Part shown: piece by piece, positions 28,452-48,414 of the stretch
Numbering within the stretch: position 1 is the stretch's first letter
Layout of the letters: each line of letters opens with the position of its first letter
Virus record (IMG/VR): IMGVR_UViG_3300028392_000030
Coordinates: 62,001 to 126,000 of that record
From: a virus
Reading direction: 5' to 3' (one strand)
DNA: 64,000 nucleotides
Made by a program: the position numbers and the translations under genes
Notes under the pieces: model-generated
Database searches by the model: none
The model's input: the letters and a program-made list of their open reading frames with translations, nothing else
Told to the model about the DNA's origin: nothing

Positions 28452-29695
28452 CCGTCGACAAGTTATATGCGACATATGGAGAAAAGATGTGTCTTGCTCC
28501 ATTTGTCAATAGCTTTTATTCTACCTGCGGAGTAGTCGATCCAGACCAAACTGTTGCAAACTTTGTGCGTCCTTGTAGTGTTATACAGGCTGGTCCTGAA
28601 TGGAACGTTCAAGATTCGAACATTACTGCGACAAGAAATACTCGGGTTTGGAAAGACCTACGTCAATCTTTTTTAGATGGCCGTATGCCTATGTCATGTG
28701 GCACATGTATCAACGCAGAACGAGTAGGAGCAAGTAGTCCCAGACAACTCAATAACGCATATCTGTTTGAGCATTTAGATATAGATATACTGGAAGAAGT
28801 TCAACGTATAGTTGACGCAGAGTTAACGGCCAACAGCATATATGCATTGGACTACATGCCCAGTAACTACTGTAATTATGCTTGTGTGATGTGTTATTCA
28901 GGCGCCAGTAGTCAACGATATACATTTGACCTTCAACAAGGAAGAAAAATAAAGTATGAAATCAACTCAGTTGATCATGACTTTTTTGATATAATTAAAG
29001 ACGTAAAGATCCTGGGCTTTACCGGCGGTGAAACTATCCTACAGCCCGAAGTCAATCGCTTAATTGATTATGTAATTGAACACGATTTAGCCAAGGACAT
29101 GATTATAACTATCTTAACTAATGCAAGTGACTTTCCTGACCGATTAGTTGAAAAGTTCAAACAGTTTAAACGAGTATTGTATACCGTAAGTATTGATGGT
29201 GTAGGTGCAGTGATAGAATATCAACGCCGCGGAGCACGATGGGACTCTATTGTAGAGAATGTAGCAAAGATACAAGCAAGTCCTGTCCACGAGGTAGTTA
29301 ATCATGTGGTCACTGCTGTTAATATACTCGGTGCCATGGACTTTGTTGATTGGTGCTATAGCAACAATTTAAAGTATACCAGTATCAGTCATGTGTTCCA
29401 AGAACATTTGGGCATCTGTGCCTTGCCACCTGAATTAAAAGCTGTGGCATTAGAAAGATTACATGCCGGCAGGAAACGGTACGAGCATTGGGCAATGCCG
29501 GAATATAGTAATCATGAAAAGGGCCATTATGTGCAGACTATAGATAGACTGATTAGCACTGTAGAAAGCATTGAGTTTAAACCTGCGGCATTAGCAAAGT
29601 TTATCGAGCATATTCGAACAGAAGACTCAGTCAGTAAACGACCACTTTGCAAAGTGGTTCCGGAATGGGCACCTTGGTTTAACTACAAACTTTAA
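28448..29695 (+). CDS. Radical SAM protein
   Basis: The 415-residue protein has CNYACVMC (C142, C146, C149) for the SAM cluster, then FTGGETILQPEV (GGET in place of GGEP), and N-terminal cysteines including MCLAPF, TCGVV, RPC and SCGTC that may form a second site. It is the last gene of the plus operon and overlaps the convergent carbamoyltransferase by 17 nt. It is diverged from the six minus-operon enzymes. An 18-bp palindrome lies near its 3' end. Confidence 0.88.
   Translation: MTVDKLYATYGEKMCLAPFVNSFYSTCGVVDPDQTVANFVRPCSVIQAGPEWNVQDSNITATRNTRVWKDLRQSFLDGRMPMSCGTCINAERVGASSPRQLNNAYLFEHLDIDILEEVQRIVDAELTANSIYALDYMPSNYCNYACVMCYSGASSQRYTFDLQQGRKIKYEINSVDHDFFDIIKDVKILGFTGGETILQPEVNRLIDYVIEHDLAKDMIITILTNASDFPDRLVEKFKQFKRVLYTVSIDGVGAVIEYQRRGARWDSIVENVAKIQASPVHEVVNHVVTAVNILGAMDFVDWCYSNNLKYTSISHVFQEHLGICALPPELKAVALERLHAGRKRYEHWAMPEYSNHEKGHYVQTIDRLISTVESIEFKPAALAKFIEHIRTEDSVSKRPLCKVVPEWAPWFNYKL
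29641..29658. repeat. 18-bp perfect palindrome near convergent operon ends
   Basis: ACCACTTTGCAAAGTGGT is its own reverse complement. It lies inside the radical SAM coding sequence, about 40 bp from its stop and 20 bp from the convergent stop. It could fold as a hairpin in either transcript or serve as a dimeric protein site; no T-tract follows it. Confidence 0.8.
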
Positions 29696-31157
29696 CGCCA
29701 TATAACTGTTCAAAACGATCAGCATCTGCTCTATCATTGACCATGGGCTCACCACGTATGTTCAAACTGGTGTTGAGCAACATAGGGCACCCTGTTAACA
29801 CATACCATTTTTCTAACAATTCTCTTATGCCCGAACCGTCTTTCGCCACAGTTTGCACTCGACTGGTGCCATCAACATGACATATAGCAGGAGTAAGGTC
29901 AGGCTGGCGACACTTAGCGACTGACTGCATATAAGGACTATGATGCCAACCCACTGGCATATCAAAATAGTCATTAGCCACCTCAGCCAATATGACCGGG
30001 GCAAACGGCCTAAACTGTTGTCTACGTTTGATCGCATTCACTTTCTCCTTGATCTCGCAGCCTCTAGGGTCTGCAAGGAGGCTACGGTTTCCAAGTGCGC
30101 GGGGGCCGAACTCGGCTCTTCCTGATGCCACTCCGACAATTTTGTCACTAAGAAGCCGGTCCAACAACTCATTAACAGGATAAACACCTGGAATGCAATG
30201 GCCGAGATAACTGTTGTGCCAGTTAATTCTACGCCCAAAAGCCAAAGCGGCAGCACCGAGACTGCTACCAGCGTCACCGGGGCAAGGCATAATCCAGATT
30301 TTGTCAAAGTAATCTCCTAACATACGGTTGGCTGTGCAATTTAAAGCCACCCCACCCATATATACCAGATTATGACTAAATTCAAAGTTTCTAGCACGAA
30401 TCATCACCTGCTTTATAAGATCCTCTGCTACTAATTGTCCAGCAGCTGCAATGTTTTCATTACTAGAACCCTTTAGAAAATCTGCACTCATACCTGTGTG
30501 GAAGTTTTGCTTTAGTCTTATATCACGATCGTTGGCAATCACATGCTTGCGCATGTCGTGATACCATGTGTTGCGACCCCAAGCAGCCATGCCCATGGTA
30601 ATGTATTCTTCGTCTAAGGGATGTAGGCCAACTCGTTCTGTGACAGCACTGTAGAACAACCCTATGCTGTGCGGATAAACCTGTCTCCATAATCTTTTAT
30701 ACCGAGCCACGCCTTTTCGATCATATTCTGCACCCCATATTGATATTGTGTCCCATTCGCCTATTGCATCTATTACTACCACTGTGGCATGATCAAACGG
30801 GCTTGTTTGAAAGCCTGCGGCAGCGTGGCTCAAATGATGATTAAAACTATGCACCTTTGTGGGTTCAATCTGTCCTCCCAGTTGCTTGTGCAGTATTTGC
30901 CGGGTAGTAAGTTTTGACCATTCAATGCCTTGACCTGCGTACCATTGTCTAAATTGTTTGTTCCAAGGACGTTCATAATAGGCCACAATCTCAGGACCAT
31001 ACTCTGCAACTTCGTCTAGCAAACCCTGACAAAAGTCAGCGTCATTTTTCCGTTTACTATAACGTTCTGAATGGCCGGCGAACAATATCTCGCCGCGAGG
31101 ATCGATCACTGTGGCCGCGGCGTCATGAAAGCCGGCACTAATACCTAGGATATTCAT
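29679..31157 (-). CDS. NodU/TobZ-family carbamoyltransferase
   Basis: The 492-residue protein starts MNILGISAGFHDAAATVID (Kae1/actin-like ATPase fold), has VHSFNHHLSHAAAGF with metal-binding His, GRAEFGPRALGNRSLLADPR and NTSLNIRGEP, all diagnostic of NodU/CmcH/TobZ O-carbamoyltransferases. These use carbamoyl phosphate and ATP to make carbamoyl-AMP and transfer the carbamoyl group to a sugar hydroxyl. It is the last gene of the 18.7-kb minus operon and overlaps the 33-aa gene stop (ATGA). Confidence 0.93.
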   Translation of the reverse strand: MNILGISAGFHDAAATVIDPRGEILFAGHSERYSKRKNDADFCQGLLDEVAEYGPEIVAYYERPWNKQFRQWYAGQGIEWSKLTTRQILHKQLGGQIEPTKVHSFNHHLSHAAAGFQTSPFDHATVVVIDAIGEWDTISIWGAEYDRKGVARYKRLWRQVYPHSIGLFYSAVTERVGLHPLDEEYITMGMAAWGRNTWYHDMRKHVIANDRDIRLKQNFHTGMSADFLKGSSNENIAAAGQLVAEDLIKQVMIRARNFEFSHNLVYMGGVALNCTANRMLGDYFDKIWIMPCPGDAGSSLGAAALAFGRRINWHNSYLGHCIPGVYPVNELLDRLLSDKIVGVASGRAEFGPRALGNRSLLADPRGCEIKEKVNAIKRRQQFRPFAPVILAEVANDYFDMPVGWHHSPYMQSVAKCRQPDLTPAICHVDGTSRVQTVAKDGSGIRELLEKWYVLTGCPMLLNTSLNIRGEPMVNDRADADRFEQLYGVKVCS

Positions 31158-31255
31158 TTGTAGATAAATGGATCTCGTTTACGTAGTTCTTTTAGCTTTT
31201 TACGATAGCGTATTTCTAGACGAATTCGATTGTATAAGTTTTTGATCCAGTTCAT
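31154..31255 (-). CDS. Small basic peptide, 33 aa
   Basis: A 34-codon frame exactly fills the gap between two operon genes: its ATG is one base after the upstream stop and its TGA overlaps the carbamoyltransferase ATG. The product begins MNWIKNLYNRIRLEIRYRKK and ends RKRDPFIYK, and is strongly basic and helical. I recognise similar short ORFs from aquatic phages. It could bind RNA or be a substrate of a modifying enzyme (inference). Confidence 0.65.
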   Translation of the reverse strand: MNWIKNLYNRIRLEIRYRKKLKELRKRDPFIYK

Positions 31256-31256
31256 G

Positions 31257-32309
31257 TCAGTTTCCTTGTTGTAATACTGCTATTTGTTGCGCCATATAGT
31301 CTGAATCGTTCCAACGATATGGATATGTAACTTCTGCATCGCTGGTGCGAATTGCTGTTACATTGAGTCGTGTATTTAACTGGGTCCATATGTCATGATA
31401 ATCTTCTGTGCCAAAACTTTTGAGCAATTTAACTTGACCTACTTGTGGATGTCCAATAGTAAGAGACTTGTCCTCTGGATCAAACCCATTGTTGATTAAC
31501 CAAGTTCTAAAATTGGTCAAGTTACGAGTTTGCCACGGCGCACCAGCTGGATTTTGCGCCCATTCTATATCAAAGTCCCCAGCAGCTTCTGTTTGTGGTT
31601 TTAAGGTTGATGTAGTCAATGAGTCTGTGCGATGCTCAGGGTTGTAATGAGCTTCGTCGACAAATACTTCCCAATGATGTTTGCCCACTGCTTTGTTGAC
31701 TCCTACAAATACCCCGCCGGTTGGTCGGTTGATACTTTCTATGCCAAACAGTTCATAATCATCGTCGTCTAACACAAAGCGTGGACTGTTTAACCAGCAC
31801 ATGAGTTGACTAGGTCGCATCCATTCTGGTGCGGTGTGTTTTTTATTCCAACTCTGGGCCCAACTTTCAAACTCATGACACAGTCCATTTAGTTGCCTGA
31901 TATGCCAGCGTGTTTCACTGTTGGCCTTTGTATAAAATGGGCTCATTTTTCCGCTGACGCCTTGAAGGTCTTCGAAATAACTGTGTAGTCGATTAAAACG
32001 GTCGTGAACAATTTTGCGATTATTATCTAACACTGAGTCTAGTGTAAAGTGATCATCAATTTGATATCCTATGTTTTCAGCATTAATAGCCAAAATACTG
32101 GCATTAATTTGATCTATTAAATAATTACCGTTACGAACACTGTCAGCAAACCCAAAAAAACAGTAGTTCTTTTCCAAGTGATAGTTGTTGGCAACAAGCG
32201 TGTTTAGGCTGGCCAACCATTTGCGACTTAAACTGGAGTCGTATACATCTACGTATACCGTTAGATCTTCTAGGTCTATTTCTACTACATCAAGTAACAA
32301 TCGATTCAT
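31257..32309 (-). CDS. Hypothetical protein, 350 aa
   Basis: I prefer ATG 32309 (MNRLLLDVVEIDLEDLTVYVD) over a GTG at 32336. The protein is acidic with many Asp, Trp and Asn residues. It has VLDDDDYELFGIES followed by GGVFVGVNKAVGKHHWEVFVDE in the second half, which looks like a beta-rich domain. No motif I know is present. It lies between a radical SAM gene and the carbamoyltransferase and overlaps the former by 20 nt. Confidence 0.65.
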   Translation of the reverse strand: MNRLLLDVVEIDLEDLTVYVDVYDSSLSRKWLASLNTLVANNYHLEKNYCFFGFADSVRNGNYLIDQINASILAINAENIGYQIDDHFTLDSVLDNNRKIVHDRFNRLHSYFEDLQGVSGKMSPFYTKANSETRWHIRQLNGLCHEFESWAQSWNKKHTAPEWMRPSQLMCWLNSPRFVLDDDDYELFGIESINRPTGGVFVGVNKAVGKHHWEVFVDEAHYNPEHRTDSLTTSTLKPQTEAAGDFDIEWAQNPAGAPWQTRNLTNFRTWLINNGFDPEDKSLTIGHPQVGQVKLLKSFGTEDYHDIWTQLNTRLNVTAIRTSDAEVTYPYRWNDSDYMAQQIAVLQQGN

Positions 32310-33585
32310 ACCATTCCAATAGTTCGTTGTCTGCACTCAGTATGTCTTTGAGAGTATAAGTATCACCACGCACCTGTTCTAGTCGCAACACACGTTCTTT
32401 TCCTTTGACTAACCCCGCCGGATATTCCTCAGGCCACTGTTCTGCAAACGTCGGACGATTCTTTAACTGTAACAGTATATCTCTGAGCGCACCTGTATTT
32501 AAGTTGGCTACCAGAGCATCGACCTTTTTATCTAGCAATTGTCTAGGCAGGGCCAACGGACTCATTATAATGTCCGGAGTAAACCCAAATACAACTTTGG
32601 CCAATACGTCTACACCAAGCTCGTGAGCCAATGCTTGTATGTTGGCCACTTCAAATAGTCCAGGCAACGTAAGTGTAAAGTCTATACGCATTTGTCTACG
32701 ATTGGTGGCAACAGCTACACCTTGACGGAAATTCTCTTGCCATTGTTGGTAGTTGAGCCCAGTTCGAATATACTCGCCTACAGCGCCTGTGCCATCCAGA
32801 CTGGCACAAACTTGCCAGTCCCGCAAATGCGCCAAGATGTCACGATAAAGATTAACACCTCGATAATCAACCCTGCTGAGATTAGTATTGTATCTTGCAT
32901 AGACACGCCGACCATCACCTTGATCTACTATTTGTTTCATGTAGCGCCAATGCTGTTCAAACATTAGCGGCTCTCCACCTACCCAGTATATTTCTTCTAC
33001 GCGATGTTCTGCCACTGCTTGGGCAAATTCTGCTTCAATTTGTGTGTCTTGGAACTGACTTATTTCTTCTCGGACTGCAGGTCGCATCCAGTTGTTTTTG
33101 GGATTAGCCCAGTTGATCATGTTGTTGGCACGTTGCTCTGATTCCCAACTACTACTCAGCATATCCCCGCAGGTGCGACATTTAAAGTTACATAAATTAC
33201 TAAAGCGATAATCCCAACTAACTGGCTTGACAGTAGTTGAGCCATCTGCTGCAGTATTTGCCATTGCATCCGCATACTTGTGTGCAAATAGTCGATTAAA
33301 GTAACTACGGTAAACATCTGTGTTCAACAGCTTGTTGTTACATACGTCACATTCTGGTAATGTTTCTCCAGCCATCATTCTACGTCGAACACTTTTCATG
33401 TGTTCACTGTTCCAATGTTGGTCCAGCGAAACTGGATTATACTTACCAGTTCCGGAACTGGTATCTATATACTGTTCAAAACTTTGTGCAGGCTCACGGC
33501 TAGCACAGCACATTCTACGCTCGGTCTGTGGGGAGAGATAGGTATGCGTCCATGGCGCCATGCATAGGTTATCTGGTTTCTGCAT
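32290..33585 (-). CDS. Radical SAM protein (twitch-type, subgroup A)
   Basis: The 431-residue protein has CNFKCRTC (C132, C136, C139), YWVGGEPLMFEQHW, and N-terminal cysteine sites LCMAPW, RMCCASREP and ECDVCNN, which suggest an auxiliary cluster built from N-terminal residues. It shares subgroup A features (xCxxPW...CC at the N-terminus) with the proteins at 34486, 35715 and 43232. The chemistry is radical SAM, generating a 5'-deoxyadenosyl radical; the substrate is unknown. Confidence 0.9.
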   Translation of the reverse strand: MQKPDNLCMAPWTHTYLSPQTERRMCCASREPAQSFEQYIDTSSGTGKYNPVSLDQHWNSEHMKSVRRRMMAGETLPECDVCNNKLLNTDVYRSYFNRLFAHKYADAMANTAADGSTTVKPVSWDYRFSNLCNFKCRTCGDMLSSSWESEQRANNMINWANPKNNWMRPAVREEISQFQDTQIEAEFAQAVAEHRVEEIYWVGGEPLMFEQHWRYMKQIVDQGDGRRVYARYNTNLSRVDYRGVNLYRDILAHLRDWQVCASLDGTGAVGEYIRTGLNYQQWQENFRQGVAVATNRRQMRIDFTLTLPGLFEVANIQALAHELGVDVLAKVVFGFTPDIIMSPLALPRQLLDKKVDALVANLNTGALRDILLQLKNRPTFAEQWPEEYPAGLVKGKERVLRLEQVRGDTYTLKDILSADNELLEWYESIVT

Positions 33586-34489
33586 ACGCTAATAAAGGGT
33601 TGATAATTTCTTCTTGTATGCGTTGACAAACTAATGTGCTGTCAAAAAATCTAGCACGATTGTGTTCAATACGTTCCAAAGTTTCAGCTGTATACGGTTC
33701 TTGTGCAAACTCACGCAAATTCTGTTGTATCTTTAGTAAACGATCGGCACCGGCCAATAGGTCATACGATTCATCAAACATGTTATTGTAAGTTACGAAT
33801 CCCTGCGCTTGTATATACTGCAAGGTACCAGGTGCACCTTGTATCTGAAATGGGTGTTGAAAGGCCATGGGTTTAAATGACTTTTCAGTTACAAATGGTA
33901 TGCCGCTGGCCGGCAATTCTTCTGTTGTTTCGACCACTAGACTAAAATAAGTTGAGTTGTACCAGTCTGGACAAAAATATCTTTGCCAATGTATATGATT
34001 GCGTGGAAGATCATTGGGCAATATCTTGTTTCGGTAACTGTAGAGAATACTGTGTAGGTCAGGTGTCATCTGTTCGATCACTCGATCTCTACAGTCATTG
34101 GGTCTGTTAATAGGCATAAATGCCAGGTGTTGATATGTTCTATCGGGTTGGTAGTTTCGATAGCCCAGTTGGTCGTACCACAACGACTCATTATACCAAA
34201 ACCAGTTGGTGTTTAACAAGCAATAGGCCCAGTCGTAATCAGTATCCACTCTTTCCCAAAGATTATTGATCACTACCCGGTGTCCAGATTTAGATAATTG
34301 TTGTGCCCATTGCCGAATAGTTGTGTTGTTTAAATCCACAACATCGATTACGTAAATGTCATTTAGATCTTCTACGCCATTGAATCTACAAGTCTGAAAA
34401 TACGTTTCAAACAACGGTTGTATGTAGTTTGGCCATATCGAGCGCCGAAACGATGGATGCGTGACTAGTTTTACACGATTCATTGTCAT
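33569..34489 (-). CDS. GT10/GT-B-like glycosyltransferase paralogue
   Basis: The 306-residue protein has VETTEELPASGIPFVTEKSF then KPMAFQHPF and GFVTYNNMFDESYDLL, the shared signature of four glycosyltransferase-like proteins in this window. It lies between two radical SAM genes and is coupled to the upstream one by an ATGA overlap. The donor and acceptor are unknown. Confidence 0.65.
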   Translation of the reverse strand: MTMNRVKLVTHPSFRRSIWPNYIQPLFETYFQTCRFNGVEDLNDIYVIDVVDLNNTTIRQWAQQLSKSGHRVVINNLWERVDTDYDWAYCLLNTNWFWYNESLWYDQLGYRNYQPDRTYQHLAFMPINRPNDCRDRVIEQMTPDLHSILYSYRNKILPNDLPRNHIHWQRYFCPDWYNSTYFSLVVETTEELPASGIPFVTEKSFKPMAFQHPFQIQGAPGTLQYIQAQGFVTYNNMFDESYDLLAGADRLLKIQQNLREFAQEPYTAETLERIEHNRARFFDSTLVCQRIQEEIINPLLAYAETR

Positions 34490-35718
34490 TGCCCGTGTGG
34501 GTTCTCTGGGCTGATATAACCAATCAATTTAGCAAACTCGGGCTGAACTGCGACCAAGTTTTGGCTGCGTCTACGATCTAAGTTGCCAACTTCTCTACGT
34601 AATTGTTCGCCATCTAGACTGGCTCCACGATTCATAAAATCTGCCACACGTCGAAATTCTTCTTGAACGTGGTTTGGAACATCAGCTGCAAGAAGTCGTT
34701 CGGTAATCACTTGTTTAGCATGTTCTGGCAGGCTACTGATACTAAAGAAGTATGCATCGTGCATCATATTCCAGTAGATAAAATCCATCTGTTGTTCTAA
34801 AATCCACAGTGCTACAGTTTCTAAATAGTAAACGTTAAACACATTTATAGTGCAACAAATTTGTAAACGAATATTCTTGTGTTGGCCACGTAGCTCACGG
34901 AACCGAGCAACGTTGTTGACCACTTCGATCCATACTGCATTTGATCTTTGATATTCAAAGCGTTCACCTACATCGTCGATACTGAATGCTATTTCTACTA
35001 TCTTAAAATGCCGCCAAATCTCTTCGGCGTTGTCGGGCCACTGAGTACCGTTGGTGTTGTAATGTATTTCTATATTGCCAGCCAATCCACGATCAACCAG
35101 GCCTTGTAACATGTTAAAATGCTCTTGGATCATAAAAGGTTCGCCGCCGGTAAACTCTATATACTGTATTTGATCCGATATGCCGGCTATTTCGTTCCAA
35201 AACTTTTGATTTTCTCTGGGCCAAGCGCCTTGACGCAGCATATGATAATGATGATTATCTTTTCTATCTTCATTACGCATTAGATGCTGTAGTTCTTCAG
35301 CAGCATACGTGCTGGAACTCCACGAGCCGCAGATGCGACATTTAAGATTGCAAATATTACCCAATTTAAGATCAACAAACATCAAGGGTTTTGCATCCGC
35401 AGTCCAATCTTGATCGGGCAACATGTGTTTAAGACGATCTAATGTGTGCATACGTTTGCTGGTGCGGCCAGCACGTTCTTCCTTCCAACACTTGCGACAT
35501 GTGTTGGGTTGTTTGCCATCAACAAATTCCTGACGCAGTGCTCGCATGTTGGCACTGTTTTGTATTGCTTTAAAATCAGCAGTGGCCAAATTAAACTTGT
35601 CGCCAGCATCATCTACCAATTCATCGTCGGCTAAACAACAAGGACGCACAGTACCAATAGGACTGGCTTCTAAACTGACCCAAGGTAATACGCAAAATTT
35701 ATCGTGTGGTATTTTCAT
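34486..35718 (-). CDS. Radical SAM protein (twitch-type, subgroup A)
   Basis: The 410-residue protein has CNLKCRIC (C123, C127, C130), EFTGGEPFMIQEHF, and N-terminal FCVLPWVSLEASPIGTVRPC followed by a second Cys, plus TCRKCWKEE. The Cys pairs fit an auxiliary iron-sulfur site. It is in the middle of a run of three adjacent radical SAM genes joined by ATGA overlaps. Confidence 0.92.
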   Translation of the reverse strand: MKIPHDKFCVLPWVSLEASPIGTVRPCCLADDELVDDAGDKFNLATADFKAIQNSANMRALRQEFVDGKQPNTCRKCWKEERAGRTSKRMHTLDRLKHMLPDQDWTADAKPLMFVDLKLGNICNLKCRICGSWSSSTYAAEELQHLMRNEDRKDNHHYHMLRQGAWPRENQKFWNEIAGISDQIQYIEFTGGEPFMIQEHFNMLQGLVDRGLAGNIEIHYNTNGTQWPDNAEEIWRHFKIVEIAFSIDDVGERFEYQRSNAVWIEVVNNVARFRELRGQHKNIRLQICCTINVFNVYYLETVALWILEQQMDFIYWNMMHDAYFFSISSLPEHAKQVITERLLAADVPNHVQEEFRRVADFMNRGASLDGEQLRREVGNLDRRRSQNLVAVQPEFAKLIGYISPENPHGQ

Positions 35719-39129: not shown

Positions 39130-39725
39130 ATTATTTCCCTTAGACGAGATAATACTTCATCGTATGCTGTAATTTTAGGAAAGCGATCAATATCAGATCC
39201 ACTTAAATCTGGTTCAATTTTTTCGTAAGACAAGGTAGTGTCAAAATATTCTTTGCAGTCATTCCACACAGCCAGAGTTTCGCGCACAGTTTGAACAAAT
39301 GGTAATAATTGCCCATTGGTCAACTGCAACGCAAAATCACGGCTGGCGAATACAGAATCGGCATTTCTATCCTGCTGCCATTTTCCTAAACGATACGATA
39401 TAGCGTAACTCAATGCTTGAGCCGCAATATCTTCTCGATACAATCCAATTATATAAGAGTTATTAAACAAAGAATCCCATTGGTCTTCTGGAGGCATATG
39501 ATTTGGCATAATTTTTACTATGCTCTGCTGAGCAGAATCATATACATGCGGCCTTGACGAGTGATTGTAATGAAACACTTCTCCTAAAAAAGGCAATCCA
39601 GTAATTTTACTCAACAGGTTTCCAAAGGCGGTGCTGCCAGTTCGGTAATTGGCCATTAACACTATACTCCAGTTGCCTGGAATTTCAAACTCGTGGTTGG
39701 TAAGTGTTATCTTAAAGTCGTTCAT
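39126..39725 (-). CDS. Stf0-like sulfotransferase
   Basis: The 199-residue protein has MANYRTGSTAFGNLLSKITG, resembling the PAPS 5'-phosphosulfate loop, and YREDIAAQALSYAISYRLGK W, resembling the 3'-phosphate-binding segment of Stf0-type sulfotransferases (RxDxxxQAVS). Such enzymes move a sulfonyl group from PAPS to a sugar hydroxyl. It is coupled by ATGA overlaps to the genes on both sides. Confidence 0.75.
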   Translation of the reverse strand: MNDFKITLTNHEFEIPGNWSIVLMANYRTGSTAFGNLLSKITGLPFLGEVFHYNHSSRPHVYDSAQQSIVKIMPNHMPPEDQWDSLFNNSYIIGLYREDIAAQALSYAISYRLGKWQQDRNADSVFASRDFALQLTNGQLLPFVQTVRETLAVWNDCKEYFDTTLSYEKIEPDLSGSDIDRFPKITAYDEVLSRLREII

Positions 39726-40906: not shown

Positions 40907-41830
40907 TTATAATTGTTCTTTGAAATAATTAATGGTTTTGAGTAGCCCTTGGTCGAGATCAATCTCTGGGCGCCAACCCAATAAAGTGTTGGCTAAATTA
41001 ATGTCTGGCCGGCGTTGTTTAGGATCATCTGCGATAGGCGGCAAATGTATTATGCTACTCAAGGATTCTGTTAACTTGATTATTTTTTTAGCCATATCAA
41101 TCATTGTGTATTCACTAGGGTTGCCAATATTGACCGGACCTATTTCTCCTGAGTTCATTAGAGCTATTAGTCCTCTCACAGTGTCAGACACATAGCAAAA
41201 TGAACGAGTTTGCAATCCTTTGCCATAAACAGTTAAGTCCTGATTGGTCAATGCTTGCATAATAAAATTACTAATTACTCGGCCATCATTCTTTGACAAG
41301 TGTGGACCAAATGTATTGAATATCCTAGCAATTTTAATATCAACGTGGTGTTCTTTGTGATAGTTTATAAAAAGACTTTCAGCACAACGTTTGCCCTCGT
41401 CATAACAGCTCCTTATTCCTAAAGGATTTACATTTCCCCAATAATCCTCTGTTTGGGGCGATACCAGTGGATCTCCATAAACTTCGGAGGTGCTGGTTTG
41501 TAATATGCGAGCTCCGGTGTTGTGTGCCAATTTTAACATATTAATTGCACCTAACACACACGTCTGGATTGTATTAACTGGATCTTTTTGATACCACTTT
41601 GGGCTTGCCGGGCAGGCCAAATTATAAATTTGATCTACAGCAAGTGTTATGGGTTCTTTTACATCGTGTTTAATGAAATCAAATCTAGGATGGTCGCGCA
41701 GTAATTTAATATTGTCAAGACTGCTTGATAGTAAATTATCTAAACAATAAACAGTATGGTCCATTGCTAATAGTTCACGGCATAAATGACTTCCAATAAA
41801 CCCGCTACCACCAGTAACTAATATTTTCAT
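40907..41830 (-). CDS. UDP-glucuronate decarboxylase (UDP-xylose synthase)
   Basis: I start at ATG 41830 (MKILVTGGSGFIGSHLCREL), in an ATGA overlap with the radical SAM gene, giving 307 residues. Diagnostic UXS segments are IYNLACPASPKWYQKDPVNT, STSEVYGDP, a YWGNVNPLGIRSCYDEGKR block carrying the catalytic Tyr and Lys, RIFNTFGPHL and TRSFCYVSD. The enzyme converts UDP-glucuronate to UDP-xylose with bound NAD. This gives the most specific clue to a sugar used by the pathway. Confidence 0.93.
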   Translation of the reverse strand: MKILVTGGSGFIGSHLCRELLAMDHTVYCLDNLLSSSLDNIKLLRDHPRFDFIKHDVKEPITLAVDQIYNLACPASPKWYQKDPVNTIQTCVLGAINMLKLAHNTGARILQTSTSEVYGDPLVSPQTEDYWGNVNPLGIRSCYDEGKRCAESLFINYHKEHHVDIKIARIFNTFGPHLSKNDGRVISNFIMQALTNQDLTVYGKGLQTRSFCYVSDTVRGLIALMNSGEIGPVNIGNPSEYTMIDMAKKIIKLTESLSSIIHLPPIADDPKQRRPDINLANTLLGWRPEIDLDQGLLKTINYFKEQL

Positions 41831-43239
41831 TGCTGGCTCCAATAGCGACATTCTGCCCACCAAGCTGTCATCTCAGGAAATGTCTTTAAAAAATCAGTTC
41901 CGTGTCTACGATCCGCTTCAGCAAAGAAGCGATAAAAGTCTGCTTTGTTACGATTGATATGTGCAGGATCCAACCGTTGCCCGTCGCGCATCCATGCAAT
42001 GTCTCTATCCAGTCTGGCAATTTCATAATCCTTAAAACCTTGAAATCTTGTCTCTTCTGTTTCAATGTTCTTCATCATGAATGCCCAGACCAGTTCGAGT
42101 TGGTCTACATAACTTTCTGGCAATAGTTGTAGGCTTTGCCATGTGGGTTGACGCAATACCGGAGTATCAAACCATATGCGTTGATATGTCGTGCTGTAGA
42201 TTTTTCTAAGTCCCAAGATACCACTGAACAGTTTGCCTAGCCCTGTTACACTGAGATTATTCATGGTAACAATAAAGGTAATTGAATTACGTCCAGGAAT
42301 ATCTGTTAGAAATTGATTAACACGATCCCACAGTAAACCAAAATCTAACCCATGTCTGATGTATTCAGCCTGTTCCATCCACGAATCTAAACTAACAAAT
42401 TGCATGAAGTGTTCAATCTTTTCGCCTTCACATAATTCTTTAACATAGCCCTTATACTTCTGCCAACTTTTTTCATCTACACTGAAGTTTGACGTTACAT
42501 TTAGATGTAAGTCGGGTTTGGGATTGGCCAACACATAGTCAAATACACGATAGGTGTTCTTGTCTAACAAGGGCTCACCGCCGGTCATGCGGAAGTGTTG
42601 TAGTTCTAGATACAGGGTTGGCCACCACTCCCAGAAAGCATCTACATAAGGGTTGTCTTCACGAACTGGTATAGGCCTATTACGGCCAACAAAATGACTA
42701 GGATCGTTATGAGGAGATGAGGTAGGGTAAGCTCCAAATCTCTCGGTTTCCGCTTGCCAACTGCTACTAAATTGCGGACTACAGTAGGAACACACAAGAT
42801 TACAAGCGTGATTAAAATTAACTTCAACATAGCTAGGAATAACATCTTCATCTCCATTTGAATTTACTACAACATCAAAGTCTTTGGCGGCCCAAGGTTC
42901 GCCCGAACGATAGTGACGGTCGCTTAACTTATTATTGTCTTCCATGGTCCAGCAATAGCTACACTCGCTAGGACGTTCTTGCTTTAACATAATCTTACGT
43001 TGTTCTTTCTTGTAAGGAGTATTATGTAATGCTGACGGATTGTCCGTTAATAGTTCTGCTGGTATTGCATGTAAGGGCGGATGGTAACAACTGTTGTTCA
43101 GTCCTGTAGGCAAGTGTAGACTAACTTGTTTCCACTTGGCCAAGCAAAGTGCAGTACCAAGATTTGCCTTCATGAACTCTGCATCGCCTAGGAACTTTGA
43201 TTTAAAGTCGATTGCAACTTCATCGCCTTTGTTATTCAT
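41827..43239 (-). CDS. Radical SAM protein (subgroup B, SCYHPP type)
   Basis: Starting at ATG 43239, which overlaps the upstream stop by 8 nt, the product has 470 residues; a longer frame to 43341 would run inside the previous gene. It contains CNLVCSYC (C146, C150, C153), RMTGGEPLLDKNTY, and the subgroup B blocks LCLAKWKQVSLHLPTG, NSCYHPPLHAIP and CSYCWTMED. It is paired with the UDP-xylose synthase gene by an ATGA overlap. Confidence 0.9.
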   Translation of the reverse strand: MNNKGDEVAIDFKSKFLGDAEFMKANLGTALCLAKWKQVSLHLPTGLNNSCYHPPLHAIPAELLTDNPSALHNTPYKKEQRKIMLKQERPSECSYCWTMEDNNKLSDRHYRSGEPWAAKDFDVVVNSNGDEDVIPSYVEVNFNHACNLVCSYCSPQFSSSWQAETERFGAYPTSSPHNDPSHFVGRNRPIPVREDNPYVDAFWEWWPTLYLELQHFRMTGGEPLLDKNTYRVFDYVLANPKPDLHLNVTSNFSVDEKSWQKYKGYVKELCEGEKIEHFMQFVSLDSWMEQAEYIRHGLDFGLLWDRVNQFLTDIPGRNSITFIVTMNNLSVTGLGKLFSGILGLRKIYSTTYQRIWFDTPVLRQPTWQSLQLLPESYVDQLELVWAFMMKNIETEETRFQGFKDYEIARLDRDIAWMRDGQRLDPAHINRNKADFYRFFAEADRRHGTDFLKTFPEMTAWWAECRYWSQQ

Positions 43240-44332
43240 ATTCGTGATTTCGTAAAATGTTGTCAATGGCAAAAGATTTAAACGGCAATAATTTAAATAA
43301 TTTTTCGCCTCGTAAATTATCCAACAGCAATATGTGTGCAATGGTCTGTTGAAACAAAACTTGATTAATATTGTTGCTAATCAAATTTCTGATGTGCAAT
43401 ATTGTATTATTGTCAATGTTATGATTGTGTTCAAGTTGATCAACTTTATCCAAGGCCAATGATTTCAATGATTCAGGTATTACATCCAACGCCAGATAAT
43501 CTGGCCCTGTCAGTATAATCAAATTGATAGAGATATTATTTAATTTGGCATAATCGTACAAGTCGTTGATAAACCAAATATTTAAAATACTTAATACCGG
43601 ACTGAGAGTAACGTTAATATTTGAGTCGTGTGTGATTGTCAATAACTTTTGTAAATTTGAGTTTATTTTCTCCCAATTGGTTCCAGATCGAATATATTCC
43701 AATGGCTCGCCAACAGCATCTATACTGCACTGTATATTAACTTGTTTAAATTTTTTCCAGAGATCAATGATATTTTTATCTTTATATTTTATTGTAGTTA
43801 GATTGGTGTTATACATTAGTTCTATCTTGCTGGCTTGTCCGCTGTCAACCAGTTCGTCGAGCAATGCCCAGTGTTCGCTATTGATCAATGGTTCGCCGCC
43901 GGTAAAATACATCCATTGCAAGGAGCCAGTGAATAGTATGTCTTTGTAATTGGCCAGATCTTGATTTTCTATAATAGGAAATCTACCAAGCTCTTCAGCC
44001 CATTGGCTGCTAAAATGTGGCCCGCAATACCTACATTTTAAATTGCAAAGATTGGTATTCCTAATGTCAACAAATTGTAAGCCCGGAGCTGCTGTTACTT
44101 TTTTATTAAATCCATTTCTATAGCTGGATAATCCATGGTATTCTGCCACTGCACATTTATTACACGGGTGGTCTGGTGGGCAGTCTTGAGTTTTTAAATC
44201 TACGAATCTGTTTGGATTTGATAATTCAGATATGGGCTTGGAGTAACTGCTGTCAATTTGACAACAAGGACCAATTTTCCCATTGGGGAAAACGGTTACT
44301 CCGTGATCAATTGCCGCACAAGTCCAGGTCAC
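43232..44332 (-). CDS. Radical SAM protein (subgroup A, short)
   Basis: The 366-residue protein uses a GTG start in a GTGA overlap with the preceding stop. It has CNLKCRYC (C96, C100, C103), YFTGGEPLINSEHW and N-terminal cysteine sites TCAAID, GPCCQID and PCNKC. It is the first and shortest radical SAM protein of the operon. Fewer residues precede the core than in its paralogues. Confidence 0.9.
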   Translation of the reverse strand: MTWTCAAIDHGVTVFPNGKIGPCCQIDSSYSKPISELSNPNRFVDLKTQDCPPDHPCNKCAVAEYHGLSSYRNGFNKKVTAAPGLQFVDIRNTNLCNLKCRYCGPHFSSQWAEELGRFPIIENQDLANYKDILFTGSLQWMYFTGGEPLINSEHWALLDELVDSGQASKIELMYNTNLTTIKYKDKNIIDLWKKFKQVNIQCSIDAVGEPLEYIRSGTNWEKINSNLQKLLTITHDSNINVTLSPVLSILNIWFINDLYDYAKLNNISINLIILTGPDYLALDVIPESLKSLALDKVDQLEHNHNIDNNTILHIRNLISNNINQVLFQQTIAHILLLDNLRGEKLFKLLPFKSFAIDNILRNHEYE

Positions 44333-45009
44333 GACACAAACTCACTTGCCAAGTCGACAATAGGAGCATTCGGACCAACGTCGTTGAACATGTTCCAGGC
44401 AAACTCAAAGTTGGCATTTTTAATATAAAAGTTTTGCATGTGTTTTTGATAATGAATTGTATACACTTCTTTAGCTTCTTGTAAAAATTTTATTTTTAGA
44501 TAATCTTCGATTAATTTAAAATTGTCAATTACAGACTTAAAATCTAAACACAATACATTACAGTGCTGATTATTTCTACCAGACTCAGTATAATAGTTTA
44601 GGTTATAATCAATCCAATCCCATGCCGATAAAATACTAGCAATTGAAATTTCTGTTGTGTTTGTATTATTTACTAACCATTGTCTTTGTATTCCATAATA
44701 TTCATCGGCAGGATTACAATCTAACATGATACATTGACTATCAGGAAATTTATATGAGATTAATTCCGAGTTTAAACAATGCAATTGTATAATGTCGCTT
44801 GGCGTTATTTCTTTTGTGAACTTAATGGGATTATTTTTAGTTATTGTGCAATCGATACTCTCCAGTGGCCAATTGACCACATGAAACGTATTGTTTTTTG
44901 GCAATTTGACACGACCGGTCCTCGACGACTCAATCGCTGACGCTAAAGCGTTTCCGAATGTTCCTCCGAGATAAGATAATACAATACTTCCAGGAAAACT
45001 GTAAAACAT
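44329..45009 (-). CDS. Putative P-loop (sulfotransferase-like) protein
   Basis: I start at ATG 45009, which overlaps the upstream stop (TAATG) and has AAGG in front; a TTG at 45015 is an alternative. The 226-residue protein begins with a strand and Gly-rich loop SYLGGTFGNALASAIESS, like the loop in the 5630-6313 protein. The rest is low in known motifs. A nucleotide-dependent transferase is possible; the evidence is weak. Confidence 0.5.
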   Translation of the reverse strand: MFYSFPGSIVLSYLGGTFGNALASAIESSRTGRVKLPKNNTFHVVNWPLESIDCTITKNNPIKFTKEITPSDIIQLHCLNSELISYKFPDSQCIMLDCNPADEYYGIQRQWLVNNTNTTEISIASILSAWDWIDYNLNYYTESGRNNQHCNVLCLDFKSVIDNFKLIEDYLKIKFLQEAKEVYTIHYQKHMQNFYIKNANFEFAWNMFNDVGPNAPIVDLASEFVS

Positions 45010-45941
45010 TACCAACCTTCTTGCTGTCTGATTACATCCATTTCGCGGGTCATGACTCCGCGATTGTGCCAGTTACTACGATAGTGTTGTTTGAAAAATG
45101 CACTTTCGTTTTCTTGCATCATATTAACGGGCAGGTCTAATTGTGCGATCAGGTCTTCTGCAACACGGCCGGCTAACAGCTCTGGATCTGAATCTTTTAC
45201 TGTGTTCCAGAGTTGTTCTAGTTCAGCAAAGTCTTGCACCACACGATGATCCCATGTGGGAGTAATCATGGTCATGTAGGTGCCCATACGGCTGCCGGCT
45301 ATGGCCCAGATACCGTGTTCAACATCGCGGCCAACGTTATGCCATATGGTCAAGTGATCAAGGTTGCGTTGATGCACACGGTCACGGAATTCACTCACAG
45401 TGGGTCTAGTGCCACGATTCAAACACATCTTGACTCCTTCTCGGAATCCGGCACGCCAGGCATGGAATGCTGACCCATTGGGGTATGTGGTTGAATAGCA
45501 GTCATACATGGGCCAATATAAGGGATCAAAACAAAACTCCACTTCGGTTTCTGCTGAGCCGTTGGTGGCTTCGTGCGTTTTCATATTGTTTACAAATGCA
45601 CGAGTCCAGCTACTAAGTCCTCCGTTGCCATACATCAAGCCATTGACATGATTACGTGCTCGCCAGCGGAATACGGCATTTTCCCATTCACTGTCAGGAA
45701 ACTGCATTGTGAGGTTAAAGAATTTTGCATCTGGCATATTGTCGCCGTCGATTAGGATAAAGCGTTCAGTGTCACTGGCAGCAGCTGCGGCCTTGTGTGC
45801 GGCGTCCGACCCTTTAACTCCGTCTACTCGTTTGGCCCAAGGAATCATATTGCGTATCTTTACCCAAAATTCTTCCTTTTGCGGTTCGTCATATGTCAAG
45901 TAAATGCAGTCTAAATCTGCTATATCAATTTGTTTGGTCAT
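45009..45941 (-). CDS. GT-A glycosyltransferase-like protein with DGD motif
   Basis: The 310-residue protein has ERFILIDGDNMPDAKFFNL, a metal-binding DxD-like motif after a beta strand, typical of GT-A enzymes. It also has YGNGGLSSWTRAF and FHAWRAGFREGVKM, the latter shared with the 600-aa protein at 24516-26318. It probably transfers a sugar from a nucleotide donor. It overlaps the upstream gene by 17 nt. Confidence 0.72.
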   Translation of the reverse strand: MTKQIDIADLDCIYLTYDEPQKEEFWVKIRNMIPWAKRVDGVKGSDAAHKAAAAASDTERFILIDGDNMPDAKFFNLTMQFPDSEWENAVFRWRARNHVNGLMYGNGGLSSWTRAFVNNMKTHEATNGSAETEVEFCFDPLYWPMYDCYSTTYPNGSAFHAWRAGFREGVKMCLNRGTRPTVSEFRDRVHQRNLDHLTIWHNVGRDVEHGIWAIAGSRMGTYMTMITPTWDHRVVQDFAELEQLWNTVKDSDPELLAGRVAEDLIAQLDLPVNMMQENESAFFKQHYRSNWHNRGVMTREMDVIRQQEGW

Positions 45942-46296
45942 GTGGTGGGTCCTGATGTTTTAAACTCCATTTGGTGTGCGGCTGATCCGTGTCCACTACT
46001 ACACAAACATTCCTAGGATCGCAGGCCTGTCCGTATCCCACAGGCACTATTTTTTTGGCAAAATTGGTTTGATATACTACCAATTTTCCATTCAATACTC
46101 TGATGTGTTTAGGACTGTTAAGGTATGTTTCTTGATCAACAACTATGTAATTACCAGGCAACTGCTCCATACTGAAAAATAACGGAAATCCGTTTTCATC
46201 ATAGTATAATCGATACTCCGGAGCACCGTGAACAGCAGACACTTGGCTTTGCCATATACTGAAAAATTCCTCTTCAGTCATTGGGGTTGTCATCAT
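45925..46296 (-). CDS. Hypothetical protein, 123 aa
   Basis: The product is beta-rich (YRLYYDENGFPLFFSMEQLP, YIVVDQETYL, HIRVLNGKLVVYQ), like small conserved phage proteins. AAAAGG lies before the two possible ATG codons (46296 and 46293). No function recognised. Confidence 0.62.
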   Translation of the reverse strand: MMTTPMTEEEFFSIWQSQVSAVHGAPEYRLYYDENGFPLFFSMEQLPGNYIVVDQETYLNSPKHIRVLNGKLVVYQTNFAKKIVPVGYGQACDPRNVCVVVDTDQPHTKWSLKHQDPPHDQTN

Positions 46297-46549
46297 CGAC
46301 CTTTTGATTGTTACGTTTTTCTTGAATAGTTAACTTATCTTTATGTGTCTTACGAGGGTTTCCACATAGGTAACATTCAGGATTACCACAATCCATTGCG
46401 TGATGTTTGGCCAGACGGTGTGGTTCTGCTACTATAGGATCGTTTTTTGTGAGTCCGTGTGCCTTGGCTATTTTAATTTGTTTTTTTATAGCGTTTTCAT
46501 CTTTTAATAACCGTTTGCTATGTTTGATTTTATCTTCGTCTCGGCTCAT
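46274..46549 (-). CDS. Small CGNPxCxLCGNPR zinc-knuckle-like protein, 91 aa
   Basis: ATG 46549 has GGAGG five bases upstream and is preferred over 46561. The basic helical N-terminal half is followed by HHAMDCGNPECYLCGNPRKT and LTIQEKR, a conserved block I recognise from many small phage and bacterial proteins of unknown function. The cysteines may bind a metal. Confidence 0.68.
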   Translation of the reverse strand: MSRDEDKIKHSKRLLKDENAIKKQIKIAKAHGLTKNDPIVAEPHRLAKHHAMDCGNPECYLCGNPRKTHKDKLTIQEKRNNQKVDDDNPND

Positions 46550-47319
46550 GCTATCCTCCAATCCTTAATGTAATAATGGACAAATCCTGATTGTGCTACA
46601 GTATGTATCCTAAGCCCTGGATCAGTTGCTTCCCAAACTAGTTCTTGAGTCCAATCTTCTGTTAGAGTAGGTATAATATATCTTTTCATATGAGTAATCA
46701 TGGGGCCCATTCCTTTGGGTAGCGTAACGTTTTCTACGCCAATGATCGTTGCAGCCATGGCATAGACCACATCTGTTGTTGCCTGCTCGTCTGGAAATTT
46801 TAGTAAGGTTTTAAACAGATTCCAATTTTCAAATATGTTTCTTACTAAATCAAAAAACTCTTTGGCACGGGCACTGAGTCTCCAATATGTAACAGCGTTA
46901 TACACATCTGGTAAAGCATTGACATCAAATAGTTTACGATAGGTTCTATTATCACTGGGCTGATTGGTTAAATCTTTACATCCTTGACTAATCACAACAT
47001 CACGTTTTTCAAACAAGGTCCACCAATGGTCTATAGGCGTGGCCACCAACATATCAGCTTCTAATTTAATAGTTTGCCTATATGGACTAGCGGCAAAACA
47101 TTGCCAGTCGTTGGCAAAGCCACCTAGGTCACCATGTGGCAAAGGAACTACATGATCAAACACTGGATCGTCGCATCGCTTGACTGTAATCACAGCAATA
47201 TTGGCATCAGGATGCCACTGGCGAATTGACCCGGCAAGTTGTCGAGCACAAGCCAAATAGTCCACTGATTCTGTATCAATGGCCGGTATCAGATAACCGC
47301 GTTCAGCAAGGATTGGCAA
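46546..47319 (-). CDS. GT-A glycosyltransferase-like protein (EAD motif)
   Basis: The gene uses a TTG start (47319) with AGGAG six bases upstream and overlaps the previous gene by 17 nt. The 257-residue protein has QTIKLEADMLVATPIDHWW, in which EAD takes the place of DxD, and SGFVHYYIKDW at the end, as in GT8-like transferases with a C-terminal His. It resembles the neighbouring protein at 47303. Confidence 0.7.
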   Translation of the reverse strand: MPILAERGYLIPAIDTESVDYLACARQLAGSIRQWHPDANIAVITVKRCDDPVFDHVVPLPHGDLGGFANDWQCFAASPYRQTIKLEADMLVATPIDHWWTLFEKRDVVISQGCKDLTNQPSDNRTYRKLFDVNALPDVYNAVTYWRLSARAKEFFDLVRNIFENWNLFKTLLKFPDEQATTDVVYAMAATIIGVENVTLPKGMGPMITHMKRYIIPTLTEDWTQELVWEATDPGLRIHTVAQSGFVHYYIKDWRIA

Positions 47320-48112
47320 CTATTGCTCCTAATGCTTGTTTGCCCATGGCATGAAAGTCTTGCTGTTTTAACACAATCCATCTAGGTTTATCGTCGCCAG
47401 TGATATATTGTATTTTATATGTGTCTGGTCCAAGCTGAGTCAACGTAGCGTTGGCCGTAATACTGGCCAAATTCCATGGAATAGATGGTGTGCTTAATGT
47501 ATGACCGTCAACAATATTCATAGCAATACTTAATGCAAAATCATTACGGAATGTATTTTCACTCACACTGTATAATTGTCTGTAATGTGTCCAATTATCT
47601 CTAATCATTTGCATGGTATCAAATATCATTTGGGCTTTTTTACTTCGACGAAAACACATGACTGTGGCCCAACTCATTGGCATCTTGTATGTGCCAAACC
47701 AATTGTTATCGTGAAACGCAGTAAACCCAGTGACATCATATGCTATACGATGTGCAATAAAATCTTGATTAATATCAAATAATCTTTTTAACTGATCGGA
47801 TGCAACAACAAAGTCAGCGTCTAGCACCAATGTATGATCCCATGGGCTTAGGTCATGCACACTGGATCTATTTGTATTATGCCAAGTGGCACTGACTTTA
47901 TAATCGTAAAAATATCTATGTTGCTGTGTCAGTTGAGGTTCGGTTAAAACAACCTGGTCAAAATCAGCGGTGCGGGCAGTATCTGTTACGTCGGTAATTA
48001 CGCAAACTGGCAAATCTAAATGCCTGCGAATATTACTAGCTGACCAAGCGGCCATGGCCAGATAATCAATCCGCTCATTATTAAACGCAAATATTGTTAC
48101 ACCACGAGTCAT
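47303..48112 (-). CDS. GT-A glycosyltransferase-like protein (DAD motif)
   Basis: The 269-residue protein begins GVTIFAFNNERIDYLAMAAW and has DHTLVLDADFVVASDQLKRL, a DxD motif in GT-A context, and WATVMCFRRSKKAQMIFD, which fits the acceptor side of such folds. It forms an adjacent pair with the EAD-motif enzyme. The ATG overlaps the upstream stop. Confidence 0.73.
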   Translation of the reverse strand: MTRGVTIFAFNNERIDYLAMAAWSASNIRRHLDLPVCVITDVTDTARTADFDQVVLTEPQLTQQHRYFYDYKVSATWHNTNRSSVHDLSPWDHTLVLDADFVVASDQLKRLFDINQDFIAHRIAYDVTGFTAFHDNNWFGTYKMPMSWATVMCFRRSKKAQMIFDTMQMIRDNWTHYRQLYSVSENTFRNDFALSIAMNIVDGHTLSTPSIPWNLASITANATLTQLGPDTYKIQYITGDDKPRWIVLKQQDFHAMGKQALGAIVANPC

Positions 48113-48414
48113 CTTTTTTGATTCAACTCTTCATATTCTACTAACCAAGCATTCATCTGTTCTTGCCAGCGTTGTTGACTTAATGTCATTAGTTCTCTAG
48201 TATCAACTTTAACAGGGGTTTCATATAAGTCTAGCAATACTGCTTCTATGCCAGGGCAGGTCAATAATGTATTTTGTAATTCTGGTCCTGCTCGCCACAT
48301 GCCACCAGCATAAGTAAAAGTTAATTTGGCTTGATATTTTTCTTTGAGGGTAATGCGAGCTTGGTGATGGTCAAAGCGAGCACGGCTGTGGGAAATAAGT
48401 TCATCGGTATTCAT
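48109..48414 (-). CDS. Conserved phage protein, first gene of the minus operon, 101 aa
   Basis: The product (MNTDELISHSRARFDHHQAR...) is a helical protein with LTFTYAGGMWRAGPELQNTL and RWQEQMNAWLVEYEEL, of a type I associate with T4-like aquatic phages; function unknown. It is the first gene behind the operon promoter, and the ATG coincides with the expected transcription start. Confidence 0.65.
   Translation of the reverse strand: MNTDELISHSRARFDHHQARITLKEKYQAKLTFTYAGGMWRAGPELQNTLLTCPGIEAVLLDLYETPVKVDTRELMTLSQQRWQEQMNAWLVEYEELNQKR

Follow-up and report, generated by a model that had tools for sequence, protein, structure and literature searches.

The DNA stretch considered here (the window) comprises 64,000 nucleotides and corresponds to bases 62001-126000 of the 197,025-base IMG/VR virus record IMGVR_UViG_3300028392_000030. 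Its source is a large uncultured T4-like phage of a freshwater group, and the record encodes a T4-type major capsid protein (PF07068, E 2e-98). Our subject is an operon of 21 minus-strand genes, g01 to g21, which runs from 48414 to 29679 and contains six radical S-adenosylmethionine (SAM) enzymes, candidate glycosyltransferases (GTs), a carbamoyltransferase (CarbT) and a short peptide gene that overlaps the CarbT start. An earlier description made from the letters of the window (hereafter, the sequence-only reading) had presented these genes as a chain with overlaps or gaps of at most 1 nt, and this proved accurate: the 20 junctions consist of 18 overlaps, one abutting pair and one gap of 1 nt. 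The overlap measures 4 nt at ten junctions, and also at the g20/g21 junction when the g20 stop is counted (31154-31255). The 21st gene, g20, is an open reading frame (ORF) of 33 aa, which is missed by ORF lists limited to at least 60 aa. It is the most unusual part of the operon and went unnamed in the sequence-only reading. The genes, all on the minus strand, are as follows.

48109..48414, minus: g01, 101 aa, first gene after the tail module; no family match
47303..48112, minus: g02, possible GT-A/GT8-like transferase by eye; weak match to phrog_1903 (E 9.9e-4), no Pfam family; conserved behind g01
46546..47319, minus: g03, possible GT-A/GT8-like transferase by eye; phrog_1903 (function unknown, E 4.7e-8), no Pfam family, no PDB match to E 5
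46274..46549, minus: g04, 91 aa (start at 46549 or 46561); phrog_4499 (function unknown, E 1.8e-6)
45925..46296, minus: g05, 123 aa; no family match
45009..45941, minus: g06, 310 aa, possible GT-A transferase by eye; core
44329..45009, minus: g07, 226 aa, P-loop-like by eye; no family match
43232..44332, minus: g08, N-twitch radical SAM enzyme, subgroup I (NF033640); accessory
41827..43239, minus: g09, N-twitch radical SAM enzyme, subgroup II (NF033640, C.HPP.H motif); core
40907..41830, minus: g10, UDP-xylose synthase (UDP-glucuronate decarboxylase); accessory
39722..40906, minus: g11, GT10-like glycosyltransferase with predicted GT-B fold; core
39126..39725, minus: g12, Stf0-like sulfotransferase by motif, seen by eye; accessory
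38368..39129, minus: g13, SGNH-like hydrolase by motif; accessory
37040..38371, minus: g14, N-twitch radical SAM enzyme, subgroup II (NF033640); core
35715..37043, minus: g15, N-twitch radical SAM enzyme, subgroup I (NF033640); core
34486..35718, minus: g16, N-twitch radical SAM enzyme, subgroup I (NF033640); core
33569..34489, minus: g17, GT10-like transferase by similarity to g11, no Pfam family; optional
32290..33585, minus: g18, N-twitch radical SAM enzyme, subgroup I (NF033640); core
31257..32336, minus: g19, 359 aa, predicted cyclophilin-like barrel with insertions, no sequence family; core
31154..31255, minus: g20, 33-aa DPFIY peptide, last 20 residues nearly invariant; core
29679..31157, minus: g21, 492 aa, NodU/TobZ-type O-carbamoyltransferase without the end of the C-terminal domain; core

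A ten-gene core and its enzymes

The gene order of the operon was compared with that of related viral loci. A scan of IMG/VR with g19 gave 190 relatives, the best 80 of which were fetched as loci. Genes were counted on the same strand at an identity of at least 40% (at least 30% for g11 and g17), in a recount that avoids distant g06 and g10 paralogues. The loci are truncated at their ends and often stop before g06, so that outer genes are undercounted, and the set includes a near-identical copy of the window (L012) as well as 15 loci that repeat a g19 sequence. Within this set, g18 is present in all 80 loci, g14 and g20 in 76 each, g15 and g16 in 75 each, g21 in 73, g09 in 67 and g11 in 65. 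The g06 gene was counted in 35 loci and g17 in 22, and the genes g12 (3 loci), g10 (2), g08 (2), g13 (1) and g07 (0) are rare. The sequence-only reading had suggested seeking the same gene order in other aquatic phage contigs, and conservation goes beyond chance: the core order is kept in 79/80 loci, with a single exception (L052) in which g19 lies ahead of g18. The conserved core comprises ten genes, g06, g09, g11, g14, g15, g16, g18, g19, g20 and g21. Compared with the window, the peptide has a median identity of 88%, and the other core genes have medians of 46-74%. In the isolate collection, we found no similar DNA and no relative of g14 or g19.

The sequence-only reading had assigned the whole set to one pathway. 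This is now more likely, as about ten genes co-occur and the UDP-xylose synthase, the Stf0-like and SGNH-like genes and g08 are rare members.

All six radical SAM enzymes score above the 170-bit cut-off of the N_Twi_rSAM family (NF033640), as do 11 genes in the whole record. Each of the six contains CxxxCxxC and GGEP motifs, with four to six cysteines ahead of the core CxxxCxxC, and the proposed division into two subgroups is borne out by a C.HPP.H motif in the N-terminal part that sets g09 and g14 apart. The identification of g10 as a UDP-xylose synthase also stands, as its residues 2-307 match human UDP-glucuronate decarboxylase (E 2.5e-107). A UDP-glucose dehydrogenase is encoded elsewhere in the record (phrog_9148, E 1.9e-87), and the two enzymes together cover the route from UDP-glucose to UDP-xylose. 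The g21 protein is supported as a CarbT by PF02543 and PF16861, both above cut-off; against the NodU equivalog NF041651 it reaches 138.3 bits, below the 1000-bit cut-off.

The remaining labels fared unevenly. For the two transferases read as GT10-like, a GT-B fold is predicted for g11 by an AlphaFold2 (AF2) model (pLDDT 93.6) compared by VIA-align, and g17 is linked to the family by similarity only. The g11 model aligns with the alpha1,3-fucosyltransferase 2nzw over 268 residues (Z 12.2, root-mean-square deviation (rmsd) 4.6); a different glucosyltransferase heads the list (Z 13.3), further GT-B families follow at Z of at most 12.0, and the sequence matches no Pfam family at E 0.1. The labels of three GT-A-like transferases (g02, g03 and g06), a Stf0-like sulfotransferase (g12) and an SGNH hydrolase (g13) were not confirmed: the first three show motifs by eye and match no Pfam family, g12 has no Pfam family and no PDB match better than E 1, and g13 has only a sub-cut-off match to DUF6071.

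The core protein g19 may form a cyclophilin-like barrel, to judge by its AF2 model (pLDDT 89.8, pTM 0.87). Going by their titles, cyclophilins make up the majority of the 50 best VIA-align rows (in some, the title gives no more than the name of a complex), with Z 9.2-10.4, rmsd 3.3-4.8 and 132-150 aligned residues. In the PDB, g19 has no Foldseek match at E 0.001 and no match by sequence. Nine predicted phage proteins match it at E <1e-5, one of them from Agrobacterium phage Atu_ph07.

Upstream, the operon adjoins a module of tail or virion genes.

51680-63850, minus: t4, large protein, ORF of 4,056 codons, precedes t3-t2-t1
50897-51514, minus: t3, matches one PHROG of unknown function
49556-50845, minus: t2, matches virion-structural and tail-fibre PHROGs
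48489-49466, minus: t1, no PHROG match
48421..48463, minus: hairpin GGGGC-GTTG-GCCCC, then TTTACC-17-TATAAT, 6 nt ahead of the g01 start

The order t4-t3-t2-t1 is the same in the 6/6 relatives that were read upstream, and g01 lies directly behind t1 in the window and in all six, five of them on one stretch and the sixth (G032) on L318 and L329, two stretches that overlap. A promoter had been placed at 48421-48449 by the sequence-only reading. In its favour, 5/6 relatives retain TTTAC[CT] and TATAAT between t1 and g01, and 4/6 retain a stable hairpin; L329 lacks both promoter motifs and the hairpin, L333 lacks the hairpin, and the counts are partly redundant, as the L331 and L334 junctions are nearly identical. 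Against it, a generic scan with a promoter consensus gave 61 matches where chance predicts 55.4, and the generic promoter/terminator scan was dropped as promoter evidence. TATAAT also occurs at most 80 nt ahead of ten gene starts in the window, including g01, in a raw count that carries no chance expectation. Upstream of t2 we found CATAAATA motifs, which we take to resemble T4 late promoters. To judge by these motifs, the operon may be read from a promoter of its own, and not solely together with the preceding tail genes. The notion of one operon thus draws support from the comparative gene order and from a partly conserved promoter region.

The DPFIY peptide and its carbamoyltransferase

The g20 product is an unannotated peptide of 33 aa that ends in LRKRDPFIYK and has no Pfam or NCBIfam family match. 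Across 58 distinct DNA versions, codon columns 14-33 have a synonymous diversity (pS) of 0.75 and a nonsynonymous diversity (pN) of 0.047. The ratio of 0.063 indicates selection on the amino acids of the last 20 residues; the last codon is additionally constrained by the overlapping g21 start. The Asp-Pro pair is invariant in all 58 versions. The N-terminus has a mean net charge of about +6 (negative in 5/107).

A DNA pattern for RKRDPFIY occurs in at least 120 IMG/VR loci, with a stop at most 25 residues away in all 120 listed. In 84,980 cellular genomes, it was found in 16 stretches, ten of which were displayed in frame, and the single clear peptide among them lies on an 11-kb contig of an archaeal metagenome-assembled genome. 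A tblastn search against isolate phages found none, but a peptide so short and basic could be masked by the low-complexity filter of this search, and a variant is present in one single-cell marine virus. Three loci (L016, L076 and L077) contain a second, diverged copy that ends in PFIYF or PFIYW just ahead of the usual one. In L149, the DPFIY tail forms the C-terminus of a 355-aa ORF upstream of CarbT, which by eye resembles a tagatose-bisphosphate aldolase subunit.

Peptide and CarbT occur together. The count covers 81 loci (the 80 obtained through g19 and L317, fetched otherwise) minus 15 duplicates and three short ones; 60 of these have both genes, one has the peptide only, none has CarbT only and two have neither (Fisher p 0.0015, relatedness ignored). 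The two loci with neither (L059 and L068) keep g18 and g19, and their records (46 and 29 kb) contain no CarbT or DPFIY pattern elsewhere. Among the 120 pattern matches listed, CarbT lies downstream of the peptide in 97, at a distance of at most 200 bp in 75, and upstream in four; in some loci an SGNH-like gene stands between the two. The peptide has no adjacent CarbT in 20 loci (19 listed and L052). Records were searched for 15 of these: eight have CarbT elsewhere, and the other seven are fragments of 13-83 kb without one.

In the PDB, g21 is closest to NovN, GdmN and TobZ, which modify hydroxyls of antibiotics. It shares both Pfam domains with these proteins and with NodU, and its C-terminal domain was aligned to those of NovN and GdmN; it differs from them in its length of 492 aa, in its incomplete PF16861 match, which ends at position 151/170 and leaves the last 19 positions unmatched, and in the peptide gene that overlaps its start. 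Five short-tail CarbTs (four peptide-linked ones and that of phage C48C1) reach PF16861 positions 151-158/170, and five long-tail ones reach 169-170. A peptide lies within 2.5 kb of 129/131 short-tail CarbTs, the exceptions being L214 (phage C48C1, in which no peptide was recognised) and L001 (a fragment of the phage's own record), and it accompanies 4/7 long-tail CarbTs. Most of the loci behind these tail counts were obtained by way of the peptide or g19, and some of them are related or overlap. Among isolate and single-cell CarbTs with tails of 39-52 aa, three of them counted in the seven long-tail ones, a peptide was found in 0/12 fetched flanks. A further 15 CarbT-like ORFs fall outside the tail classes: one of 372 aa, one isolate protein with FNTSFN, and 13 of 312-317 aa (L102, L106, L137, L151, L162, L183, L186, L189, L190, L096, L199, L206 and L210). 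Of these 13 genes, 12 overlap a DPFIY peptide gene by 4 nt, and in the three loci looked at a helicase gene follows directly behind.

What the peptide-linked CarbTs share is their N-terminal Kae1-like part, and there is no support for docking at the C-terminal end. We had considered that the peptide replaces a strand lost from CarbT. Scored against nine hand-aligned long tails, the ten residues at its C-terminus surpass 99.7% of 49,953 background 10-mers and 460/461 C-terminal ones, but three of these tails are from peptide-carrying phages and the register was chosen with the peptide in view. Since full-length and domain-less CarbTs are both peptide-linked, the peptide is no simple replacement for a lost strand, and the idea was dropped: seven full-length CarbTs coexist with a peptide, as do 13 CarbT-like proteins without the C-terminal domain. 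A membrane-binding amphipathic N-terminus of the peptide was likewise discarded, as its moments are no better than those of shuffles (median p 0.25; 10% of 107 below 0.05).

N_Twi_rSAM genes are present in 25/28 peptide-bearing records, which were chosen from about 200 loci mostly by size, with up to 21 matches per record, and in 13/16 of those without g19 in the fetched stretch. A capsid-matched set comprised 12 of 13 records of at least 60 kb (one repeat was left out), one of them the contig of L075. In this set, N_Twi_rSAM genes above cut-off occur in 11/12 records and the exact peptide pattern in 5/12; G029, which lacks the exact pattern, has a one-residue variant of the peptide at the usual place. 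Five named phage genomes have neither an N_Twi_rSAM match above cut-off nor the exact pattern.

Interpretations of the operon

The interpretation that we tentatively prefer, at somewhat less than even confidence, is that the operon encodes a pathway for envelope glycans whose expression is separate from that of the tail genes, with the peptide as a partner of CarbT. UDP-glucose would be converted to UDP-glucuronate by the phage UDP-glucose dehydrogenase and, where g10 is present, further to UDP-xylose. Such nucleotide sugars may feed the GT-B and perhaps the GT-A transferases, which would build or extend a glycan; the N-twitch radical SAM enzymes would subject the sugar or its carrier to radical chemistry, and CarbT would cap a hydroxyl. 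As a small CarbT partner, g20 would bind the N-terminal Kae1-like domain through its conserved tail, and the N-terminus of the peptide, which varies and is mostly basic, may position the enzyme. The most likely target would be a glycan of the host envelope, which would be altered in the course of infection so that competing phages are blocked or progeny are freed.

Several observations weigh against this interpretation. The argument for separate timing is built on sequence motifs, and g02, g03, g06, g12 and g13 have no firm family support. A complete C-terminal domain stands beside the peptide in four loci with adjacent genes, and three records have both apart from each other. In 13 loci the peptide-linked protein has only 312-317 aa and ends before LNTSxN, so that some peptide partners may not transfer carbamoyl at all; the recount with these proteins slightly lowered our confidence. 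In another phage lineage (L110, L117, L141 and L151), peptide and CarbT lie between primase and replicative helicase genes, not among glycan genes. Finally, the amphipathic character of the peptide N-terminus is not significant in the shuffle test given above.

The operon could instead yield a product like the ribosomally synthesized and post-translationally modified peptides (RiPPs). Here the DPFIY peptide would be a ribosomal precursor, cross-linked or otherwise modified at its C-terminus by the N-twitch enzymes and then glycosylated and carbamoylated, and the product would be a phage-made cofactor, signal or inhibitor, comparable to pyrroloquinoline quinone (PQQ) or mycofactocin. As in those systems, a short conserved peptide is encoded with radical SAM and glycosyltransferase genes; its gene is the second one behind the radical SAM gene g18, with a gap of 1 nt to g19. 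The near-invariance of its 20 C-terminal residues, the N_Twi_rSAM genes in 25/28 peptide-bearing records (13/16 of those without g19) and the co-occurrence of a predicted cyclophilin-like g19 with an invariant Asp-Pro also fit. Unlike in PQQ and mycofactocin, g20 follows CarbT more tightly than the radical SAM genes, as in L059 and L068, which lack both peptide and CarbT, and family searches recognised no protease and no leader-binding protein or domain in the operon. The loci with peptide and CarbT beside replication genes, and the excess of N_Twi_rSAM genes (11/12) over the exact peptide (5/12) in capsid-matched records, also speak against such a product, which we regard as fairly unlikely. 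Its specific form, in which the peptide is the substrate of the core radical SAM enzymes, the glycosyltransferases and CarbT, gives a modified glycopeptide and has its Asp-Pro handled by g19, appears rather unlikely. In the literature searches made, no publication on virus-encoded RiPPs was found by title or abstract start.

The sequence-only reading had named three possible products, a modified host surface glycan, a decorated virion protein and hypermodified DNA. The host envelope is favoured over the virion because the operon appears to have its own promoter, with TATAAT ahead of g01 and a CATAAATA motif ahead of t2. Glycosylation of virion proteins of the phage itself, such as the tail fibres, would suit the plentiful glycan genes and their position immediately downstream of the tail module, seen in the window and in 6/6 relatives, but tail-adjacent glycan clusters of related phages have been read as envelope-directed, according to the relevant part of the publication (PMC7029224), and we judge a virion target improbable. 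Quite improbable, too, is a plastic cargo island, that is, genes gathered behind the tail module without a common pathway. Such an island would explain why the UDP-xylose synthase, Stf0-like, SGNH-like, g08 and g07 genes occur in 2, 3, 1, 2 and 0 of 80 loci, and plastic host-recognition regions are described for pelagimyophages (PMC7029224); the core order in 79/80 loci and the median identities of the core enzymes and g19 (46-74%) and of the peptide (88%) speak against it. Least probable is that part of the set hypermodifies phage DNA, with CarbT acting on a hydroxymethylated base. A phage CarbT can carbamoylate 5-hydroxymethylcytosine, as stated in the portion consulted of PMC8670742, CarbT lies between primase and helicase in one lineage, and a QueE gene together with a DpdA-like gene (by eye) in the record makes another type of DNA modification plausible. 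The hydroxymethyl route to DNA carbamoylation is disfavoured and was set aside, as the 197-kb record, which may be incomplete, has no PF00303 hydroxymethylase homologue; nor was a DNA-modification gene recognised inside the operon. PF00303 occurs in 12/28 peptide-bearing records, a count that does not separate this subtype from ordinary thymidylate synthase.

Relation to described phages

The sequence-only reading was aware of no phage system described with such a set. The literature searches made gave no paper that covers the set in full, but T4-like phages with multiple radical SAM genes and tail-linked glycan clusters are in print. The former are represented by TARA_ERS488813_N000010, a T4-like phage with 12 radical SAM genes (PMC5332604), which resembles the present record and its 11 N_Twi_rSAM genes; in the passage that describes it, the context is one of Fe-S proteins, with no operon, peptide or CarbT link, and the comparison is one by description only. 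In Tasman Sea phage contigs, an enrichment of radical SAM and glycosyltransferase genes is reported in the section consulted of PMC7150976. Also close to the operon is the host recognition cluster of pelagimyophages, as outlined in PMC7029224, which likewise belongs to T4-like phages, lies in the tail fibre region and combines many glycosyltransferases with radical SAM cassettes; its authors read these clusters as envelope modification. The radical SAM cassettes of pelagimyophages come and go, whereas five core radical SAM genes stand here in fixed order with the DPFIY peptide, the predicted cyclophilin-like protein and CarbT. In the pelagiphages HTVC008M and Mosig, we found no N_Twi_rSAM match and no exact peptide pattern. 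The metavirome 5-hydroxymethylcytosine carbamoyltransferase is, like g21, a phage CarbT, but its contigs carry thymidylate synthase homologues, in the account given in PMC8670742, and none was found in this record. Literature searches retrieved no publication with DPFIY, none on the peptide family or its CarbT pairing and, by title, none on a split carbamoyltransferase.

Other genes of the record are described here as separate observations. The QueE gene (phrog_2076; L010 4319-5176, at about 40.3 kb of the own record) and a DpdA/Tgt-like gene with a DSGGFQ motif (L009 11533-13215, at about 21.5 kb), the latter labelled by eye and without a PDB, Pfam or PHROG match, suggest 7-deazaguanine in the phage DNA. 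Three related amidinotransferase-like genes were recognised by eye on the plus strand of the window (9747-10748, 22458-23477 and 27378-28451), the second of which matches arginine:glycine amidinotransferase (E 2.6e-8), and Marine virus AG-345-D19 (L217) has a relative in the vicinity of peptide and CarbT. Among radical SAM and amidinotransferase genes of the window are two PP-loop (SGGxDS) ATPase-like genes, labelled by eye and without a Pfam match (2453-3604, plus; 8286-9422, minus). A Bug/TctC-like periplasmic binding protein with a signal peptide, also recognised by eye and without a PHROG match (1541-2452, plus), hints at a betaproteobacterial host.

Taken together, phages with multiple radical SAM genes and tail-linked glycan clusters were already known, and the peptide family and its association with CarbT appear to be new, to judge by the literature searches made. 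Phages of the former kind have so far been in print without a testable functional unit, and here a conserved core is separated from accessory genes. With a promoter and a defined gene set, the role of phage envelope-glycan genes during infection becomes testable, and the peptide-carbamoyltransferase pair is small enough for cloning. If the peptide were a substrate, the operon would be a virus-encoded RiPP or cofactor pathway of a large uncultured freshwater phage group. To our knowledge, either outcome would be novel, be it a peptide that partners a carbamoyltransferase or a modified peptide made by a virus.

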